The translations under genes and the position numbers were made by a program. From positions 1 through 42,753 of the forward strand of contig VHCW01000035.1 in the NCBI GenBank assembly GCA_016871575.1: a stretch of 42,753 nucleotides of DNA, given 5' to 3'. Below are positions 6,869-42,753 of this stretch, piece after piece (positions within the stretch are counted from its first letter, which is position 1; the number at the start of each line of letters is the position of its first letter). The stretch comes from Verrucomicrobiota bacterium. Its GTDB lineage: Bacteria > Verrucomicrobiota > Verrucomicrobiia > Palsa-1439. The notes under the pieces were generated by a model. That model did not search any database and was not told the origin of the DNA. It saw nothing but the letters and a program-made list of their open reading frames with translations.

Positions 6869-7543
6869 ATGAAACAGATTCTCCTTGCTTCAACGCTGGC
6901 CCTGACAGTGGGATGCGCCACAGCCATCATGCGCCCGTACGTTGGCGAACAACAAGCATGGCCGACCGTGGAGGGCAGCATCGTCAACACCAAGTACGAG
7001 ATTCCCATCTTCAACTCGCTGCCGCCGGTCCCCTACGATGTCGTCGGCGAACTGCGCGTCGAAAGTCCTTTATATGCGCAGCCGGAAGAACATCACATGA
7101 GCACTCTCATCGCGAAAGCCAGGCAATTCAAAGCTCACGCGCTGGTGTTGGTTGATGGCCAGCTCTTTTTCGGCCCCAATTACGGCCCTCGCAGCAGCGT
7201 GCTTGATGCCTCGCCGACGATGTCCCGCGGCCTGACACAGGTCAACCGGTTTCTGCCGGAATCGTTCCGCCCCGGCGTCAGCGTGATCGCTGTCCGCTGG
7301 TTGGAAGGCGCGCCACAGGGACTTCCCGCCAAGTACGACAAGCTGGCTCCTCCGTACCAACCCAGCGCCAAGCCGCTTCCGTCGAAACCCATCGTCGAAA
7401 CCAAGCCCGTCAAACCGGTTTCGCCCAAACCGGCGGTGCCGGCAGTCGCGCCCAAGTCCAACATCAGCCCTGCGACACCTGCTGCGTCGTCCGAGGCTCC
7501 TGCTCCGCGCAAGAAAACCGCCAAGCCCGACGAAGCCCGGTGA
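6869..7543 (+). CDS. putative lipoprotein with Pro/Lys-rich tail, function unknown
   Basis: 224 residues from the ATG at 6869, chosen because AGAGGA lies 8 nt upstream and the protein then begins with a typical signal sequence (MKQILLASTLALTVGC). Cys16 is a plausible lipidation site, although Thr at -3 is unusual for a lipobox. The middle (about 30-150) looks globular, with two VV/VLVDG-type strands. The last 70 residues are low-complexity Pro, Lys, Ala and Val, as in periplasm-spanning linkers. No family is recognised. It is divergent from the polyamine cluster and convergent with aspS, so the neighbours give no functional clue. Confidence 0.7.
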   Translation: MKQILLASTLALTVGCATAIMRPYVGEQQAWPTVEGSIVNTKYEIPIFNSLPPVPYDVVGELRVESPLYAQPEEHHMSTLIAKARQFKAHALVLVDGQLFFGPNYGPRSSVLDASPTMSRGLTQVNRFLPESFRPGVSVIAVRWLEGAPQGLPAKYDKLAPPYQPSAKPLPSKPIVETKPVKPVSPKPAVPAVAPKSNISPATPAASSEAPAPRKKTAKPDEAR

Positions 7544-7570: not shown

Positions 7571-9340
7571 TCAGGTTTCAACGTCCAGCTTGATATGCAG
7601 GTCGCGGAGTTGTTTTGGCTCCACTTCCGCCGGGGAACTGGTCATCAGGTCCATTGCCTTGGCCGTCTTCGGGAACGCGATGACGTCGCGAATGTTGCTT
7701 GAGCCGCACAAGATGGCGCAGAGCCGGTCGAATCCCAGCGCAATGCCGCCGTGCGGCGGGGCGCCATAGCGGAACGCCGTGAGCATGTAGCCAAAGCGCG
7801 TCTGCGCAATCTCCTTCGGAATCTGGAGAACATCCTCAAAGACTTTTTTCTGCACGTCAGGCTGGTGAATGCGGATCGAGCCGCCGCCCAGTTCGACGCC
7901 GTTCAAGACGATATCATAATGCTGGCCGCGAACCTTGTGCGGATCGGTGTCGAGCAACGGGATGTCCTCCGCCACCGCCGCCGTGAACGGGTGGTGCGTG
8001 GAAAGATAACGGTTGGTTTCGTGGTCGAACGTCATCAACGGGAAATCCACAACCCATAAGAAGCGCCAGCCGTCGCGCGGGACGTTCAACAGGTCGGCCA
8101 CGATGAGGCGGATCCGCCCAAGGACTTCCCAAACAACCTCGCGCTTGTCCGCGCCAAACAGAATCAGGTCGCCTTCCTCGATCTTCAATTTCTCCGTCAA
8201 CGCGGCCTTTTCGGCTTCGCTGAAGAACTTCACGATGGGCGATTTCCACTGGCCGCCCTCGACCTTGATGAAGGCGAGGCCTTTCGCGCCGAAGCTCTTG
8301 GCCGTCTCGGTCAGATTGTCTATCTGGCCTTGTGTGGCGCAGGCGAGTCCCTTGGCGTTGATCGCCTTCACGACGCCGCCGGACTCGATGGCGCCGCGGA
8401 AGACCTTGAACTGGCTCGATGCAAAGTCCTTGCTCATGTCCACCAGTTCCATCCCGAACCGGGTGTCGGGCTTGTCGCTGCCAAAGCGTTCCATCGCCTC
8501 GCCGTAGGACATCCGCGGAAACGGGGTTGGAATCTTTTCACCGCGCGCGACCTGCCAGATGTGCGCCAGCAATCCCTCGATGAGCGCATACATGTCCTCG
8601 CGCGTGATGAAACTCATCTCCACGTCAATCTGCGTGAACTCCGGCTGGCGGTCGGCGCGCAGGTCTTCGTCACGGAAACATTTCGCCAGTTGAAAGTAAC
8701 GCTCAACGCCGGCGACCATGAGCATTTGTTTGAACTGCTGGGGCGATTGCGGCAGCGCGAAGAACTTGCCGGGATTCACTCGTGAGGGGACAAGGTATTC
8801 GCGCGCGCCTTCGGGCGTGCTTTTGAAAAGGATCGGCGTCTCGACTTCGAGGAAGCCGTGCTGGTCGAAGTAATCGCGCGTGGCCTTGGCGACCTTGTGG
8901 CGGAGGATCAGGTTTCGCGCCATGCTGGGGCGTCGCAGGTCAAGATAACGGTACTGCAACCGCAGGTCTTCTCCAGCCACGGCGCCTCCGCTCTCTTCGA
9001 TCTGGAAGGGCGGCGTCTCGGCGGGATTGAGCACTTCGAGTTTGTGCGCGAGCGCCTCGACGGCGCCCGTCGGCAGCTTCGCGTTCTCGGTGCCGGCGGG
9101 ACGGGCGCGGACAACGCCCTCGACGGCGATGACGTACTCGCTCCGCAATGACTGCGCGAGTTCCCAGGACTGCTTGTTGTGTTCCGGGTCGAACACGATC
9201 TGCGTCAGGCCTTCCCGGTCGCGGAGATCAACAAAGATGATGCCGCCATGGTCGCGGCGCACGTGCACCCAGCCGGCGAGGGACACTTTTTGGCCGATGT
9301 GCGGGGCGCGGAGTTCGTTGCAATGATGTGTGCGTTTCAT
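7571..9340 (-). CDS. aspS: aspartyl-tRNA synthetase, bacterial type
   Basis: 589 residues, the length of bacterial AspRS with the inserted GAD domain. It charges tRNA-Asp in the cytoplasm. Seen: N-terminal OB-fold anticodon-binding domain (GWVHVRRDHGGIIFVDLRDREG, about 23-44 including the strand motif), class II motif 2 FRDEDLRADRQPEFTQ (222-237), an insertion domain in the middle (about 280-420) and motif 3 GIALGFDRL near the C-terminus. The start ATG overlaps the hisS stop by 4 nt (ATGA), so the two synthetases are translated in coupled fashion. Whether it also charges tRNA-Asn depends on gatCAB and asnS, which are not in this window. Confidence 0.97.
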   Translation of the reverse strand: MKRTHHCNELRAPHIGQKVSLAGWVHVRRDHGGIIFVDLRDREGLTQIVFDPEHNKQSWELAQSLRSEYVIAVEGVVRARPAGTENAKLPTGAVEALAHKLEVLNPAETPPFQIEESGGAVAGEDLRLQYRYLDLRRPSMARNLILRHKVAKATRDYFDQHGFLEVETPILFKSTPEGAREYLVPSRVNPGKFFALPQSPQQFKQMLMVAGVERYFQLAKCFRDEDLRADRQPEFTQIDVEMSFITREDMYALIEGLLAHIWQVARGEKIPTPFPRMSYGEAMERFGSDKPDTRFGMELVDMSKDFASSQFKVFRGAIESGGVVKAINAKGLACATQGQIDNLTETAKSFGAKGLAFIKVEGGQWKSPIVKFFSEAEKAALTEKLKIEEGDLILFGADKREVVWEVLGRIRLIVADLLNVPRDGWRFLWVVDFPLMTFDHETNRYLSTHHPFTAAVAEDIPLLDTDPHKVRGQHYDIVLNGVELGGGSIRIHQPDVQKKVFEDVLQIPKEIAQTRFGYMLTAFRYGAPPHGGIALGFDRLCAILCGSSNIRDVIAFPKTAKAMDLMTSSPAEVEPKQLRDLHIKLDVET

Positions 9341-10536
9341 GAAATCCTCTTCCTAAGTTCGTCCCGCTTGACGCGCGTCTGTTCGCCGGTGGCGAGGTTC
9401 TTGAGCGTGGCTTCGCCGGCGGCCCATTCCTCGGGGCCGACAACGACGGCAAAACGCGCGCCGAGGGCGGCGGCGTTCTGGAATTGTTTGCCGACTTTCG
9501 CCGGTGTCAGCGAGTAGTCCACCGACACGCCGGCGTCGCGGAGATCGTGAACCAGCTTGAGCGCGTCGGGGCGAAGCGATTCGTCGGCGATGACGACGCA
9601 GGCGTCGAGGCCCCAATCCAGTTTCGGCAACAGGCCGCGCTCCTTGAGCAGTTCGCCGAGCACGACGTCGCCCATGCCAAAACCAAGCGCCGGCAGGTCA
9701 ACACCACCGACCAGTTTCAGTAGATTATCGTAACGTCCCCCGCCGGCGATGGCGCGCAGTTCGCCTTTGCGGTCGTGGATTTCCCAGACAATACCGGTGT
9801 AGTAAGCGAGGCCGCGGACGATTTTGAAGTCCACTTGGCAGAACGCGGCCAGATCGCCGAGCTTGTCCAAAAGCTCACGAAGATCTTCCTTGGGAAAGGC
9901 CAGCACGTCGTCCACCTTCGAGGTTACGGCTGCGATCTTCTCGCGCGTCTTCTCCGCCGGTTCGCGCTCCATCTTGTCAATCGCCTGGAACACGGCGCTC
10001 TGTTTCTCCCCGGGGATGCCCAGCGATTCCATGTGTCGCTGCCAGGCGCGACGGTCGGAGACGCGGACAACAAAATCATCCTTTGTCAGGCCGAAGCTGC
10101 GCAAGGCGTCAATCGCCAGCGCGATCAACTCGGCATCGGCAGCGATATCGGATTCGCCGATGATATCGGCATTGAACTGGAAATGCTCGCGGAGCCGGCC
10201 GCGTTGTTGTTTCTCGTAGCGAAACAGTTGCGGGATGGCGAACCATTTGAGCGGCTTCTTGTAGTCACGGTGCCGCGCGCCGGCCATGCGGGCGAGCGTG
10301 GGCGTCATTTCCGGGCGGAGCGCGACGGCGCGGTCGCCCTTGTCCACGAAGTTGAAAAGCTGGTGGACAATCTCGTCGCCGGACTTGAGTGTGAACAGTT
10401 CGAGCGGCTCCAGCGGCGGGCCGTCGTACTCGCGGAAGCCGTAGCGACGCGCGGTCTCGCGCCACCGCGCGAAGATGTGGCGGCGGAGCGCAAGCGTTTC
10501 GGGGTAGAAATCGCGAAAGCCGGGGAGCGGGTTCAT
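9337..10536 (-). CDS. hisS: histidyl-tRNA synthetase
   Basis: 399 residues from the ATG at 10536; a GTG seven codons upstream is possible but less likely, because MNPLPGFRDFYPE is the usual beginning. Class II motifs are present: the motif 2 strand LRPEMTPTLARM with the loop FRYEKQQRGRLREHFQFN, and the HisA motif as RGLAYYTG. A C-terminal anticodon-binding domain covers roughly the last 95 residues. The sequence REHFQFN differs from the more common REFHQ, as in some divergent HisRS branches. It lies 45 nt downstream of the HU-like gene and overlaps aspS by 4 nt. It could in principle be HisZ, but the intact HisA motif and the synthetase context favour HisRS. Confidence 0.93.
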   Translation of the reverse strand: MNPLPGFRDFYPETLALRRHIFARWRETARRYGFREYDGPPLEPLELFTLKSGDEIVHQLFNFVDKGDRAVALRPEMTPTLARMAGARHRDYKKPLKWFAIPQLFRYEKQQRGRLREHFQFNADIIGESDIAADAELIALAIDALRSFGLTKDDFVVRVSDRRAWQRHMESLGIPGEKQSAVFQAIDKMEREPAEKTREKIAAVTSKVDDVLAFPKEDLRELLDKLGDLAAFCQVDFKIVRGLAYYTGIVWEIHDRKGELRAIAGGGRYDNLLKLVGGVDLPALGFGMGDVVLGELLKERGLLPKLDWGLDACVVIADESLRPDALKLVHDLRDAGVSVDYSLTPAKVGKQFQNAAALGARFAVVVGPEEWAAGEATLKNLATGEQTRVKRDELRKRIS

Positions 10537-10581
10537 GGCGGCCCTGTGATGCGGCACGGACAGACAGCGAGTTGTCCGCGG

Positions 10582-10887
10582 TTAGGGGTTGATGGACTCC
10601 GTGAGCTTGATGACTTGGTCGCGCATTTCCTTGCCGGGCTTGAACTTCACAACGGCGCGGGCGGGGATGGCGATGTCGGTGGCGGGCGCATTCGGGTTGC
10701 GTCCGACCCGCGGCCGGCGGAGTTTGACCTCGAAGACGCCGAAGTTGCGCAACTCGACGTTTTCTCCCTTGACGAGGGCCTCGGTGATGTAGTCGAGGGT
10801 TTTCTGGACAACGGCCATGACGTCCTGTTGAATCAGGCCGGTGTCGTTGCTGATACGGATGACCAAGTCACGTTTTGTTACATTCAT
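10582..10887 (-). CDS. HU/IHF-family DNA-binding protein
   Basis: 101 residues from the ATG at 10887, the normal size of the family. Seen: N-terminal helical dimerisation part (MNVTKRDLVIRISNDTGL), VELRNFGVFEV, and the DNA-intercalating arm LRRPRVGRNPNAP followed by PARAVVKFKPGKEM. The arm keeps the RxGRNP signature with the proline used for kinking DNA. The ATG overlaps the stop of the upstream gene by 1 nt (TAATG), and hisS follows 45 nt later. The level would therefore be tied to that of the membrane protein and the synthetases. HU or IHF subunit cannot be settled from sequence. Confidence 0.93.
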   Translation of the reverse strand: MNVTKRDLVIRISNDTGLIQQDVMAVVQKTLDYITEALVKGENVELRNFGVFEVKLRRPRVGRNPNAPATDIAIPARAVVKFKPGKEMRDQVIKLTESINP

Positions 10888-11402
10888 TATTTGTTTTGCT
10901 CCAGGAAGTATTGCAGTTTCGGCGCCCACTCGTCCACAAACCGATAGATTCCATAACCGGCAGCTATCACAAATGCCAGCAGAATCAACGGGTTGCCAAA
11001 CACCCGTATCAGTCCCATGCGAAACGAACTGACTCCCGCCAGCGTCGCCTGCCGTCCCCGCAACCGCCCCAGCAACGCCTGCATGGCGATGAAGGCGCTG
11101 TGCCAGTCGCCCACGACCTTCTTATCCATCCCCTCCTCCATTTCCCGCAGCGATTGCAGACTCGGCGCGACGTTGAGCAGCCGCAACACCTTCTCGTCGC
11201 GCTCCGAGATTGTTCCCAAGGTCGTCATCAACAGTTCATATTCCCGCGCGATGCCGCTTTTCAAGTCCAGAAAAGACGATTCTTCGCGCGCTTCAATGTC
11301 ATGCGGTTGAAAACCCCGGTCGAGATACTGGCTCAATTGTTTCCACCGTTCAATGAGCAATTCCAACCGCCGAATGTTCTGCTCCAGCTTGCGATCTCGC
11401 AT
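10887..11402 (-). CDS. small coiled-coil protein with C-terminal membrane anchor, unknown function
   Basis: 171 residues. The first 120 are charged and helical with coiled-coil character (KLEQNIRRLELLIERWKQL and later MEEGMDKKVV). A single hydrophobic segment near residues 137-156 (NPLILLAFVIAAGYGIYRFV) is followed by about 15 charged residues. It would sit in the inner membrane with a cytoplasmic helical domain. No family is recognised. It leads the group HU, hisS, aspS with tight overlaps (TAATG with HU), so it belongs to that transcription unit. Confidence 0.7.
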   Translation of the reverse strand: MRDRKLEQNIRRLELLIERWKQLSQYLDRGFQPHDIEAREESSFLDLKSGIAREYELLMTTLGTISERDEKVLRLLNVAPSLQSLREMEEGMDKKVVGDWHSAFIAMQALLGRLRGRQATLAGVSSFRMGLIRVFGNPLILLAFVIAAGYGIYRFVDEWAPKLQYFLEQNK

Positions 11403-11509
11403 GGTTTCTTTCGCCTAGTCGCCCGACAATCTAGTGTCCTCCCCCGGAAGCGTCAAGCGAAATGCCATTGCGAGCCAACGACTTCTCGCTGTTGAGCGCA
11501 CAAAACAAA

Positions 11510-11540
11510 CAGGGCCGGCGCTTCAAGAGCGCCGGCCCTG
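11510..11540 (-). terminator. rho-independent terminator of hppA
   Basis: A perfect 13-bp GC-rich stem (11510-11522 with 11528-11540) and 5-nt loop, followed on the minus strand by TTTGTTTTG. It begins 22 nt after the hppA stop. It is the clearest intrinsic terminator in the window. Confidence 0.9.
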
Positions 11541-11562
11541 CAGATGGATCTTCCCTGAGGGT

Positions 11563-13869
11563 TTACTTCGTGACCAAGCCGAGCCACGACTGCACGGTTG
11601 GCGAGAACTTGATGACCACCGGCGTGAAAACGATGCTGACCATCGTCATCAGCTTGATCAGGATGTTCAAGGACGGCCCGCTGGTGTCTTTGCACGGGTC
11701 GCCAACGGTGTCGCCAATGACAGCTGCGCCGTGAACGGGATTCTTCGTGCCGTCAGGGAGACGTTTGCCGCCGTAGTTGCCTTTTTCGATGAACTTCTTG
11801 GCATTGTCCCACGCGCCGCCGGCGTTATTGAGCATGGTGGCAAGCACGAAACCCGTGGCCAAACCACCGGCCAGCAGGCCGACAACACCGGGCACGCCGA
11901 GGATGAGTCCGGCAATGACAGGCACGATGATGGCCATCAATGACGGCACGAGCATTTCCCTTTGGGCGCCTGCCGTGGAAATCGCCACGCACTTGGCGTA
12001 GTCGGGCAAATCCTTGCCTTCCATGATACCGGGCTTCTCCTTGAATTGGCGGCGCACTTCGTTGACCATCGCGCCCGCAGCGCGGCCCACGGCCTTCATG
12101 GTCATCGCGCAGAACACAAACGCCATCATGCCGCCGAGGAACAACCCGCATAGCAGCAGCGGATTCATGATGTGCATCTCGTACTTGTTCACGAAATCCA
12201 TGATACCGGCCTTGGCGGCTGTTTCCTTGGTGAATCCCATGAACTGCCCTTCGCCGGCCATCTTGCCGATCCAGATTTTAATTTCCTCAATGTAGGCAGC
12301 CAGCAACGCCATGGCGGTCAACGCCGCCGAACCAATGGCGAAACCTTTACCAGTCGCGGCAGTCGTGTTGCCGAGCGCATCGAGCGCATCGGTCCGCTGG
12401 CGAACCTCCGGCGGCAGGTGAGACATCTCAGCGTTACCGCCGGCGTTGTCTGCGATCGGGCCATAGGCGTCCGTCGCCAGTGTAATGCCAAGCGTCGCCA
12501 ACATGCCGACGGCGGCAAAGCCGATGCCGTAGAGTCCCATGATCATGTTGCTGAAGCCACCGGCAAAACCGAAGGCGCACAGGATGCCGATGATAATTGT
12601 CACCACCGGCACGCCGGTGGAATACATGCCGGTCGCCAAGCCATCAATGATGGTCGTGGCCGGCCCCATTTGCGCCTGCGTCGCGATGCCCTTGGTCGGC
12701 GCGTACTCGTCCGACGTGTAATACTCGGTTGCCTGACCAATGATCACACCGGCGGAGAGACCCGCAATGACCGAGAACACAATGCCCCAGGGAACCATTC
12801 CCAACCCGGCCATGCCGAGCAACGCCAGCACGATCAACACCGAACTGCCCAGCGTGCCCGTCAACAGCGCGCGCAGCAGATTGCGCTGGGTTGCGCCCTC
12901 CTTGCAACGCACCATGAAAATGCCAATGATCGAAAGCAGCGTGCCGACGCCGGCCACCACCATCGGGGCGGTCACCAATCCGACGATCTCCTTCACCGAC
13001 CCGCCGGCATCCATCTTGTGCATGCCCACGGCAGCGCCAAGCGCTGCGGTGGCGAGAATTGAACCGCAATAGGACTCGTACAAGTCCGCGCCCATGCCGG
13101 CCACGTCGCCGACGTTGTCGCCGACGTTGTCCGCGATGGTCGCGGGATTGCGGGGATCATCTTCCGGGATGCCCGCTTCCACTTTGCCTACGAGGTCAGC
13201 GCCCACGTCAGCCGCCTTCGTGTAAATGCCGCCGCCGACACGCGCAAACAACGCCTGCGTCGAAGCGCCCATGCCGAACGTGATCATCGTGGTCGTGATG
13301 TGCACCAGCTTCTCCATCGTCGTGCAACCCGCCGGCACCATGGTCATCCCGAAAAGCGTCCAACCATTCTTCATATTGTCAGCGGTATAGACGAACTTAT
13401 CGAGGATCAGGTACCACGCGCAAATGTCGAGCAATCCGAACCCGACCACGACCAATCCCATGACAGCGCCCGAACGGAACGCCACTTGGAGGCCGCGATT
13501 GAGGCTTTCGCTCGCGCCCTGCGCCGTGCGCGAAGACGCGGCCGTGGCCGTGCGCATCCCGATGAAACCGCACAAGCCGGAGAAGAACCCGCCCGTCAAG
13601 AACGCGACCGGCACGAACGGGTTTTGAATATCGAAGTACGCCAGCAAACTAAGCAACACCACGAGGACGAGGAACACGATCCCGACCACCTTATATTGCC
13701 GCCCCAGATAAGCCATCGCTCCCTCGCGGACGTGGCCGGCGATTTCCACCATCCGCGCATTACCGGGACTGGCGCCCATCATGAGCTTGTAGAAGTACCA
13801 CGCAAACCCGAGCGCCAACAACGACGCGATCGGCGCCACCCACCAACTGGCAGGAATAATATTATCCAT
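11563..13869 (-). CDS. hppA: membrane-bound ion-translocating pyrophosphatase, K+-dependent type
   Basis: 768 residues with about 16 membrane segments, a full-length member. It hydrolyses cytoplasmic pyrophosphate and pumps H+ and/or Na+ outward. Seen: the substrate/metal motif [22 protein letters not shown] split around GGGIYTKAA, then [19 protein letters not shown], and a second acidic set near [16 protein letters not shown]. The stretch [18 protein letters not shown] has Ala and Gly where K+-independent enzymes carry Lys and Thr, so this one should need K+. Ion specificity (Na+, H+ or both) depends on a membrane Glu position I cannot assign without an alignment. AAAGGA precedes the start and a strong terminator follows. 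Confidence 0.96.
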
Positions 13870-41926: not shown

Positions 41927-41955
41927 TTGTGTTTGAATCGCTCCCTTGATACGCT
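41927..41955 (+). promoter_or_regulatory. putative promoter of the 33-residue peptide gene
   Basis: TTGTGT (41927-41932), 17-nt spacer, TACGCT (41950-41955), 6 nt to the ATG at 41962. No Shine-Dalgarno is present; the predicted transcript starts at the ATG. Confidence 0.45.
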
Positions 41956-41961
41956 GCGCGC

Positions 41962-42063
41962 ATGGATACCAAGAAACCATACGCCGAGCCGACACTGGAA
42001 AAGCGCGACGATCTCGTGGAAGTGACGGAAATGGCTAAGCCGATTTCCGCCGACCCGTTCTAA
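41962..42063 (+). CDS. 33-residue peptide with YxxPxL leader-like motif
   Basis: Encodes MDTKKPYAEPTLEKRDDLVE and a 13-residue end, VTEMAKPISADPF. The pattern KKPYxxPxLxxxxxLxxxT is that of lasso-peptide leader sequences recognised by PqqD-like (RRE) proteins, and of small stand-alone proteins of unknown role. The segment after the Thr is only 11 residues long and lacks a clear ring-forming core, so a processed lasso peptide is not certain. No cyclase, protease or RRE gene is within the window; the right edge is 690 bp away. The gene is preceded by a promoter with leaderless geometry. It is short, so chance cannot be excluded. Confidence 0.5.
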   Translation: MDTKKPYAEPTLEKRDDLVEVTEMAKPISADPF

Positions 42064-42130
42064 CGGCTCGCCTGCCCGAGTTGTGCGAGGGTCTCCCGAC
42101 CCCGCACGGGATTGGCGCCGAACCAAGTGA

Positions 42131-42196
42131 AAGTATTCATCACGCTCCGCGTGATGTTGGCGGGTATGAACCTCATGCGGAGCGTGAGGAGCACTT
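42131..42196. repeat. 66-bp palindromic element
   Basis: Imperfect 20-bp terminal inverted repeats: AAGTATTCATCACGCTCCGC at left, and the complement AAGTGCTCCTCACGCTCCGC at right (17 of 20 alike). The left arm also holds the smaller palindrome ATCACGCTCCGCGTGAT. It is MITE- or REP-like and non-coding. Confidence 0.75.
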
Positions 42197-42205
42197 TGCC
42201 GACGA

Positions 42206-42433
42206 CTACCGCTGCAACGCGTTGATCAGTTCATTGAGCTTGTTCAGGATGTCTTGCACTTCTGATTGCGTAGGCGGATCGCTCACGCTGATGTTCAGCG
42301 TATCAACAGCGCCGGGATTGTTCGCCGTGCCGGCGATGGCGTCGTTGAGTTGTTGCTCGGACACCTCGCCGGTATCGCCTTTGTCACCGGTATCCCCCTT
42401 CCCGCCCCCGGAATTCAAGCATGAACTGAGCAA
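42206..42433 (-). pseudogene. collagen-like lipoprotein remnant or misstarted small CDS
   Basis: 75 codons from a TTG: LLSSCLNSGGGKGDTGDKGDTG, then an acidic helical tail VSEQQLNDAIAG and VQDILNKLNELINALQR. Gly-x-y repeats next to LSSC (a good lipobox) match small collagen-like lipoproteins, but no signal peptide precedes the Cys in any frame: the upstream bases are the GGCAAGAA repeat. Either the N-terminus was lost when repeat DNA was inserted, or a sequencing frameshift hides it. The stop and helical end look genuine. Confidence 0.45.
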
Positions 42434-42753
42434 CTGCTTGGCCTTAACGACGGAGGCATGACGGCAAGAAGATTTCAGGGCAAGAACATGTCCGGATGCG
42501 CAAAGGAGCGAACCACGGAAGACACAGAAGACACGGAAGAAAAAGATTCACCACGAAGACACGAAGGAGACAGATGGGATGAACAGCGAAAACGCGAAGA
42601 CGCAAAGAGCACAAAAAAAAGATTACCCACGGTGATTGCATTTGCGGGAGAGTGGGAAAAGCTTTGTAAGTAGGCCGGGCGCAAGCACTTATTTTGCTTC
42701 CGGTTTGGCGGCCGTTATGGTTCAACATAGGGATGCAAAACAAATCATCCTCA
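42434..42753. repeat. low-complexity dispersed repeat at the right edge
   Basis: From about 42500 to 42640 the plus strand consists of short variants of ACCACGAAGACACGAAGG and GCGAAGACGCAAAGAG. Open frames on both strands are translations of the repeat (TEDTEDTEE, SSVSSVSSV). Similar sequence occurs at about 14735-14790 and 23008-23030. From 42641 to the edge I see no gene. Confidence 0.65.

Follow-up and report, generated by a model that had tools for sequence, protein, structure and literature searches.

What a 33-codon gene with a lasso-type leader motif does beside the housekeeping gene rpoD, and which enzymes could act on its product, is the question raised by the window, by which we mean the whole 42,753-nucleotide stretch of verrucomicrobial DNA analysed here. 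The frame opens with an ATG at 41962, 129 nt past the stop codon of rpoD (identified via RpoD_Cterm, TIGR02393, with a score above the cut-off), and closes with a TAA at 42061-42063; its product is MDTKKPYAEPTLEKRDDLVEVTEMAKPISADPF. This peptide contains KKPYxxPxLxxxxxLxxxT, and 11 residues follow on the C-terminal side of the Thr. The short YxxPxL gene that the sequence-only reading had placed right after rpoD is there, with an intact frame; the range given in that reading, 41927-42063, covers the gene plus a proposed promoter. The host contig (G000:C35, hereafter C35) belongs to a 5.19 Mb draft of 257 contigs that is 95.4% complete, and contigs named below without a genome prefix are from the same draft.

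Other short YxxPxL frames, which it had been suggested to look for, do occur in this genome. The search found nine family members on six contigs, namely the window copy, two tandem copies on C44, two copies each on C55 and C93, and one each on C75 and C17, with E-values from 2.9e-17 to 4.6e-4. A profile search recovered the identical nine, and a broader profile gave no credible tenth member in the own genome, its single extra match having an E-value of 0.36. K, K, Y, P, T, L, K, R, V, E and S are invariant in the alignment of the nine. Numbered back from the residue that follows T-E, Tyr lies at -17, Leu at -12 and Thr at -2 (8/9 own members, with Ala in the remaining one), which equals the register Y(-17), L(-12), T(-2) reported for lasso precursors (PMC10368454). 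Over 20 leader codons of ten sequences, the nine own members and one planctomycete, the pooled pS was 0.602 and the pooled pN 0.162, a ratio of 0.27 from 45 non-independent pairs; in one pair the synonymous sites were saturated, with a pN of 0.08. This ratio indicates that the family leaders evolve under purifying selection. As the genome holds nine members and synonymous changes are in excess, the 33-codon frame stands above chance and is real.

The sequence-only reading had been ready to give up the gene if the frame was not conserved in related genomes, with synonymous and non-synonymous changes equal. The pooled leader ratio of 0.27 instead of 1, obtained from the paralogues and the planctomycete sequence, therefore does not fit equal change, but the family is absent from the near relatives sampled. 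Among 57 relatives its profile matched the own genome only, apart from one chance-like match (E 0.065, with an internal stop), and among 387 genomes of the phylum it again matched the own genome only. The conservation that we see is that of paralogues and of planctomycete relatives. As for known families, NCBIfam gave no matches for the five members scanned and PHROGs none for the window peptide; the latter was also without a Pfam match, and among 18 members Pfam gave one weak match (E 0.095) and none above gathering. A viral origin was considered and dropped, as none of 10 pattern matches in viral contigs was confirmed. The features of the window and of the C55 locus described below are collected in Table 1.

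Table 1. Location of the precursor gene, its parts and surroundings in the window, and of the genes of the C55 locus.
Feature	Location	Strand	Basis
Possible weak promoter TTGTGT-17-TACGCT, 6 nt ahead of ATG	41927..41955	+	Sequence reading
Precursor peptide gene, 33 codons	41962..42063	+	Intact frame, nine-member family, leader under purifying selection
Predicted leader MDTKKPYAEPTLEKRDDLVEVTE, 23 codons	41962..42030	+	Alignment; lasso-leader register
YxxPxL, Y(-17) to L(-12), putative RRE recognition motif	41980..41997	+	Precedent; Y and P invariant in 18/18 members
T(-2) E(-1), predicted B2 cleavage after Glu23	42025..42030	+	Register by precedent; E invariant in 18/18
Predicted core MAKPISADPF	42031..42060	+	Diverged island between conserved leader and 3' flank relative to C44 copy b
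Ser29, hydroxyl residue conserved in the core (G564 members have Thr), proposed site of modification	42046..42048	+	[ILV][ST] pattern in 18/18 cores
3' flank common with C44, including collagen-protein tail fragment	42064..42630		About 93% identity over the first 400 nt compared
PqqD-like RRE	C55 4594-4878
B2 leader peptidase	C55 4871-5272		NF033537, 50.9 bits (cut-off 33)
Precursor	C55 5288-5389
Radical SAM gene, antisense between two precursors	C55 5406-6926	-	Best NCBIfam matches far under cut-off
Second precursor	C55, ends at 7060
Putative HprK-fold kinase	C55 7057-8049		Fold and residues; Pfam matches under gathering score
NTP_transf_5 nucleotidyltransferase	C55 8053-9201		E 1.1e-34
B12-binding radical SAM gene	C55 8910-10485		Two overlapping frames

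The proposal of a promoter with leaderless geometry ahead of the window gene held only in part. A sigma-70 scan gave no promoter upstream of the gene at the scan threshold, and the candidate hexamer pair is a poor match to the consensus; a leaderless start is possible, both for the window copy and for its near-duplicates on C44 (C44a and C44b). All three lack a Shine-Dalgarno match; at exactly 6 nt ahead of the ATG each has TACGCT or TATTCT, both AT-rich hexamers. Members C55a, C75, C93b and C17 have an anti-SD match of 5-6 bases.

Downstream of the leader, the nine predicted own cores are MAKPISADPF (window), MGAPISGLKPK, VTILSGSST, QAPTISQVPGPV, GAPLPISLVEV, SGPPISGPPVPS, GDMVIISGVDR, QKPPLSAAD and GLVPVSVLP. 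They are 9-12 residues long and differ from one another, each retaining a Ser preceded by Ile, Leu or Val, and none contains Cys. An [ILV][ST] pair occurs at core position 4-8 in all 18 cores tested (nine own, one from the planctomycete locus L031 and eight from the intact members of the G564 array, both described below), compared with a mean of 3.47 in shuffled cores; none of 20,000 shuffles reached 18, the motif having been picked after inspection of the alignment. Outside this test were the core from C200 of G564 and both decayed copies, which fit by eye, as well as the cores of G667 and G525, which contain S or T but do not fit.

Comparison of the window copy with C44 copy b located the change within the core, as 64/69 leader positions and 376/404 columns of the 3' flank were identical, against 18/34 columns of the core (Fisher p of 7e-6 for leader versus core and 4e-9 for core versus flank). 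C44 copies a and b likewise have common upstream DNA and leaders identical at 68/69 positions, and their cores diverge. Core replacement or rapid change, rather than general decay, would be the best account of this island. On C44 (L012, about 8914-9300, minus strand) a unit of about 243 bp consisting of upstream DNA plus leader is duplicated in tandem, and the copies differ in their cores. Six scattered loci carry the C-terminal domain (SVSDPPTQSEVQ) of a collagen-repeat protein, one in the window (42206-42433, minus strand, where it looks truncated) and the others on C44, C55, C117, C18 and C20. We considered this tail as a partner of the peptides and rejected it: it adjoins peptides only on C35, C44 and C55, and is therefore read as part of a shared duplication.

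Candidate enzymes lie beyond the window. PqqD, B2 and two sister precursors stand together on C55, in agreement with the idea that the peptide belongs to a modification system encoded elsewhere in the genome. A lack of RRE genes was to have counted against that idea; the search for PqqD/RRE and transglutaminase-like protease genes detected two PqqD genes, on C55 (E 7.5e-12) and C59, and a single genome-wide match to PF13471 (Transglut_core3/B2), on C55. The nearest solved RRE is TfuB1 (6jx3). The B2 profile had no match among PDB sequences, B2 had none in the plasmid search, and within the phylum the C55 B2 matched 1/387 genomes, the own genome only.

The C55 kinase is predicted to carry the HPr kinase/PEPCK fold with His-Lys-Asp-Asp residues, and kinase activity is predicted with it: its model matches HPr kinase 1ko7 (Z 11.7, 128 aligned, 2.4 A), and the sequence retains the H, GK[ST] and DD residues to which catalysis by lasso kinases is ascribed (PMC9266682). 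The NTP_transf_5 model matches nucleotidyltransferases, namely 8an5 (Z 10.6, 173 aligned, 3.5 A) and ANT(2'') 4wqk (Z 9.1, 150 aligned, 3.5 A); the two AlphaFold models have mean pLDDT values of 61.5 and 67.3 and were built on four-row alignments. On C55 one protein is split over two overlapping frames, one for its B12-binding half and one for its radical SAM half; the G564 homologue is a single frame. The split is apparently a real frameshift or an assembly error.

A similar arrangement was found in planctomycetes. A scan of genome_contigs gave 42 pattern matches and one confirmed locus, L031, a Planctomycetota MAG in which PqqD and B2 are followed by MEKKEYVAPTLEKQDKLVEITEGEPVVIS, a peptide with the Ser as its last core residue. 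The peptide profile matched 2 and the B2 profile 3 of the 392 genomes of the planctomycete phylum, at most ten B2 candidates per genome being scored. In G564, contig C585 carries PqqD and B2 and then ten tandem precursors, two of them decayed. These two (L037, 1286-1375 and 2236-2328) have lost the recognition Tyr codon, one to a TAG stop and the other to Cys. Contig C200 of G564 carries a partial kinase, NTP_transf_5, one further precursor and the one-frame B12-binding radical SAM gene; the kinase, nucleotidyltransferase and B12-binding radical SAM protein are 39, 45 and 51-53% identical to those of C55. G564 cores keep Thr at the position where own-genome cores keep Ser. G667 and G525, with a more distant B2, have sets of precursor, kinase, radical SAM, PqqD, B2 and NTP_transf_5, and their precursors end in FIEPKLTKHGDATKITG plus 10 or 6 residues; a lasso cyclase was not recognised within the 15 kb read. 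L031 and G564 represent independent recurrence of the RRE-B2-precursor arrangement.

Our preferred reading, to which we give a probability of roughly 0.7, is that the window gene encodes an orphan RiPP-type precursor, which would be bound in trans by the C55 RRE, modified on Ser and cut after T-E to a short linear peptide. A precursor role in an RRE-B2 system is very probable, and the assignment of the kinase to the core Ser is an even call. With a predicted ribosomal precursor, a conserved leader and a separate core, the family has the precursor layout of RiPPs, and genes for candidate core-modifying enzymes are present. In BsfA, paeninodin and pseudomycoidin, the RRE is reported to bind the leader, to aid the kinase acting on the core Ser and to pass the peptide to B2 (PMC10368454, PMC8498205, PMC9266682). 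By this precedent, the C55 PqqD-like RRE would bind the leader through Y(-17)xxPxL(-12), and the HprK-fold kinase would phosphorylate Ser29, at core position 6, on the RRE-bound peptide, much as the kinase BsfK is reported to phosphorylate the core Ser together with B1 (PMC10368454). NTP_transf_5 would perhaps then nucleotidylate or glycosylate Ser29, as in the case of PsmK/PsmN in pseudomycoidin. If the B12-binding radical SAM gene is intact, its product may contribute a methyl group or a comparable addition. Finally, the C55 B2 would cut after T(-2)E(-1), freeing a linear peptide of about 10 residues. One enzyme set would serve nine precursors on six contigs, with leaders held constant while cores diversify, and the product would most likely have a role as a signalling or interaction peptide. 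The weaker step is the kinase assignment, because the Ser of known kinase substrates is C-terminal or at position 3 (PMC10368454, PMC8498205, PMC9266682), HprK-like kinases of known systems being described as often requiring a C-terminal Ser (PMC8498205), and that of the own family is mostly internal.

One alternative is a true lasso precursor, with an AsnB-like cyclase elsewhere, on C17 or C1, closing Met1 to Asp8. The YxxPxL leader with T(-2) and the RRE (B1) and B2 are indeed of the lasso type, a precursor and an AsnB gene are arranged tail to tail on C17, and the window core has D8. However, in the search for asparagine-synthase-like cyclases the two full AsnB proteins of C17 and C1 came out as asparagine synthases, scoring 333.9 and 436.9 bits with TIGR01536 (cut-off 267.1) and, far below the cut-off of 525, only 186.5 and 220.9 with the lasso cyclase NF033535. 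PF00733 had no match on C55, and an AsnB-like lasso cyclase was found neither with the precursor nor with B1/B2. Moreover, D/E occurs at core position 7-9 in only 2/9 own cores, with tails of 2 and 0 residues left for threading. The sequence-only description of a lasso-like peptide thus held for the leader, and the core is too short. Filing as a lasso peptide was dropped on the cyclase and core tests, and we regard this alternative as very unlikely for the window gene. In G564, where 4/8 intact array cores have G1 and D/E8, a lasso outcome is therefore possible.

The second RRE system of the genome could also be the partner. C59 encodes ScmD, ScmE and ScmF of a SynChlorMet cassette, all above cut-off (110.7, 591.3 and 579.0 bits), at 10284-12738 (L038), downstream of a gene that by eye resembles a polysaccharide phosphotransferase. 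Against the dispersed peptides serving this cassette instead of the C55 enzymes, two family members lie inside C55 beside PqqD and B2, those of L031 and G564 directly follow PqqD and B2, and T(-2) suits a B2 site; the own-genome family searches found no member on C59. A C59 partnership is thus quite unlikely. Somewhat less so, though still unlikely, is that segmental duplication produced the window copy incidentally, as a leader copy that is silent or decaying and yields no product. It shares leader and 3' flank, with the truncated collagen-protein tail, with C44; lacking a Shine-Dalgarno match and having a weak promoter, it could be silent, and decayed copies do exist in G564, one with a stop replacing Tyr. 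Nevertheless, its frame and stop codon are intact, its leader differs from the C44 copies by 2-3 synonymous changes and 1 non-synonymous change, and P-I-S was retained while the remainder of the core changed.

Compared with systems already described, phosphorylated or phosphoglycosylated lasso systems (paeninodin, pseudomycoidin, BsfA) have, in the accounts available, a YxxPxL leader of the same kind, with T(-2) (BsfA has Ile instead), as well as a stand-alone RRE (B1), B2 and an HprK-type kinase, and pseudomycoidin has, like C55, a nucleotidyltransferase. In contrast to them, the C55 surroundings contain no recognised lasso cyclase or transporter and add a B12-binding radical SAM gene, the own cores mostly lack a ring acceptor and keep a mostly internal hydroxyl, and there are several precursors per genome, most of them distant from the enzymes. 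One enzyme set with many dispersed precursors, a conserved leader and a variable core is reported for the prochlorosins of picocyanobacteria (PMC10783134), and nine precursors on six contigs with one PF13471 match follow that pattern; unlike in prochlorosins, however, the leader and enzymes are unrelated to theirs, with no Pfam match to the Nif11 leader among 18 members, and the cores are shorter and Cys-free. The SynChlorMet cassette (TIGR04248, TIGR04250, TIGR04251) also combines a PqqD-like protein with radical SAM enzymes, but C55 includes a B2 peptidase, and its PqqD had no SCM_PqqD_rel match among the matches listed, up to an E-value of 10. Lasso clusters thus already provide examples of each single component, the leader, the RRE, the peptidase, the kinase and the nucleotidyltransferase, and prochlorosins provide examples of dispersed variable-core precursors. 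In full-text searches of open-licence papers, the entries listed did not describe the cyclase-less combination in which very short cores surround a single fixed hydroxyl. We tentatively suggest, at a little short of even odds, a RiPP class that adopted the lasso leader, RRE and B2 and lost the cyclase, and whose products would be short and linear (7 to 12 residues in the own genome and L031), peptides in which a kinase and nucleotidyltransferase, perhaps with a cobalamin radical SAM enzyme, would mark one fixed Ser/Thr, the rest of the core being diversified through scattered or tandem copies acted on in trans.

RRE-Finder reported about 8,000 discrete lasso-type RREs, of which only about 4,000 adjoin a peptidase and cyclase, and its authors propose uncharacterised RiPP classes for those without a cyclase (PMC7470986). 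About half of these RREs thus lack an adjoining peptidase and cyclase, and in that account their substrates are open; here, by comparison, precursors, peptidase and tailoring genes are identified. As this genome supplies one lasso-type RRE with peptidase, tailoring genes and a natural substrate set, the substrate question can be tested with small proteins and synthetic 33-mers. If our reading is true, the organism would possess a system that diversifies peptides whose cores are very short and are modified at a fixed site.
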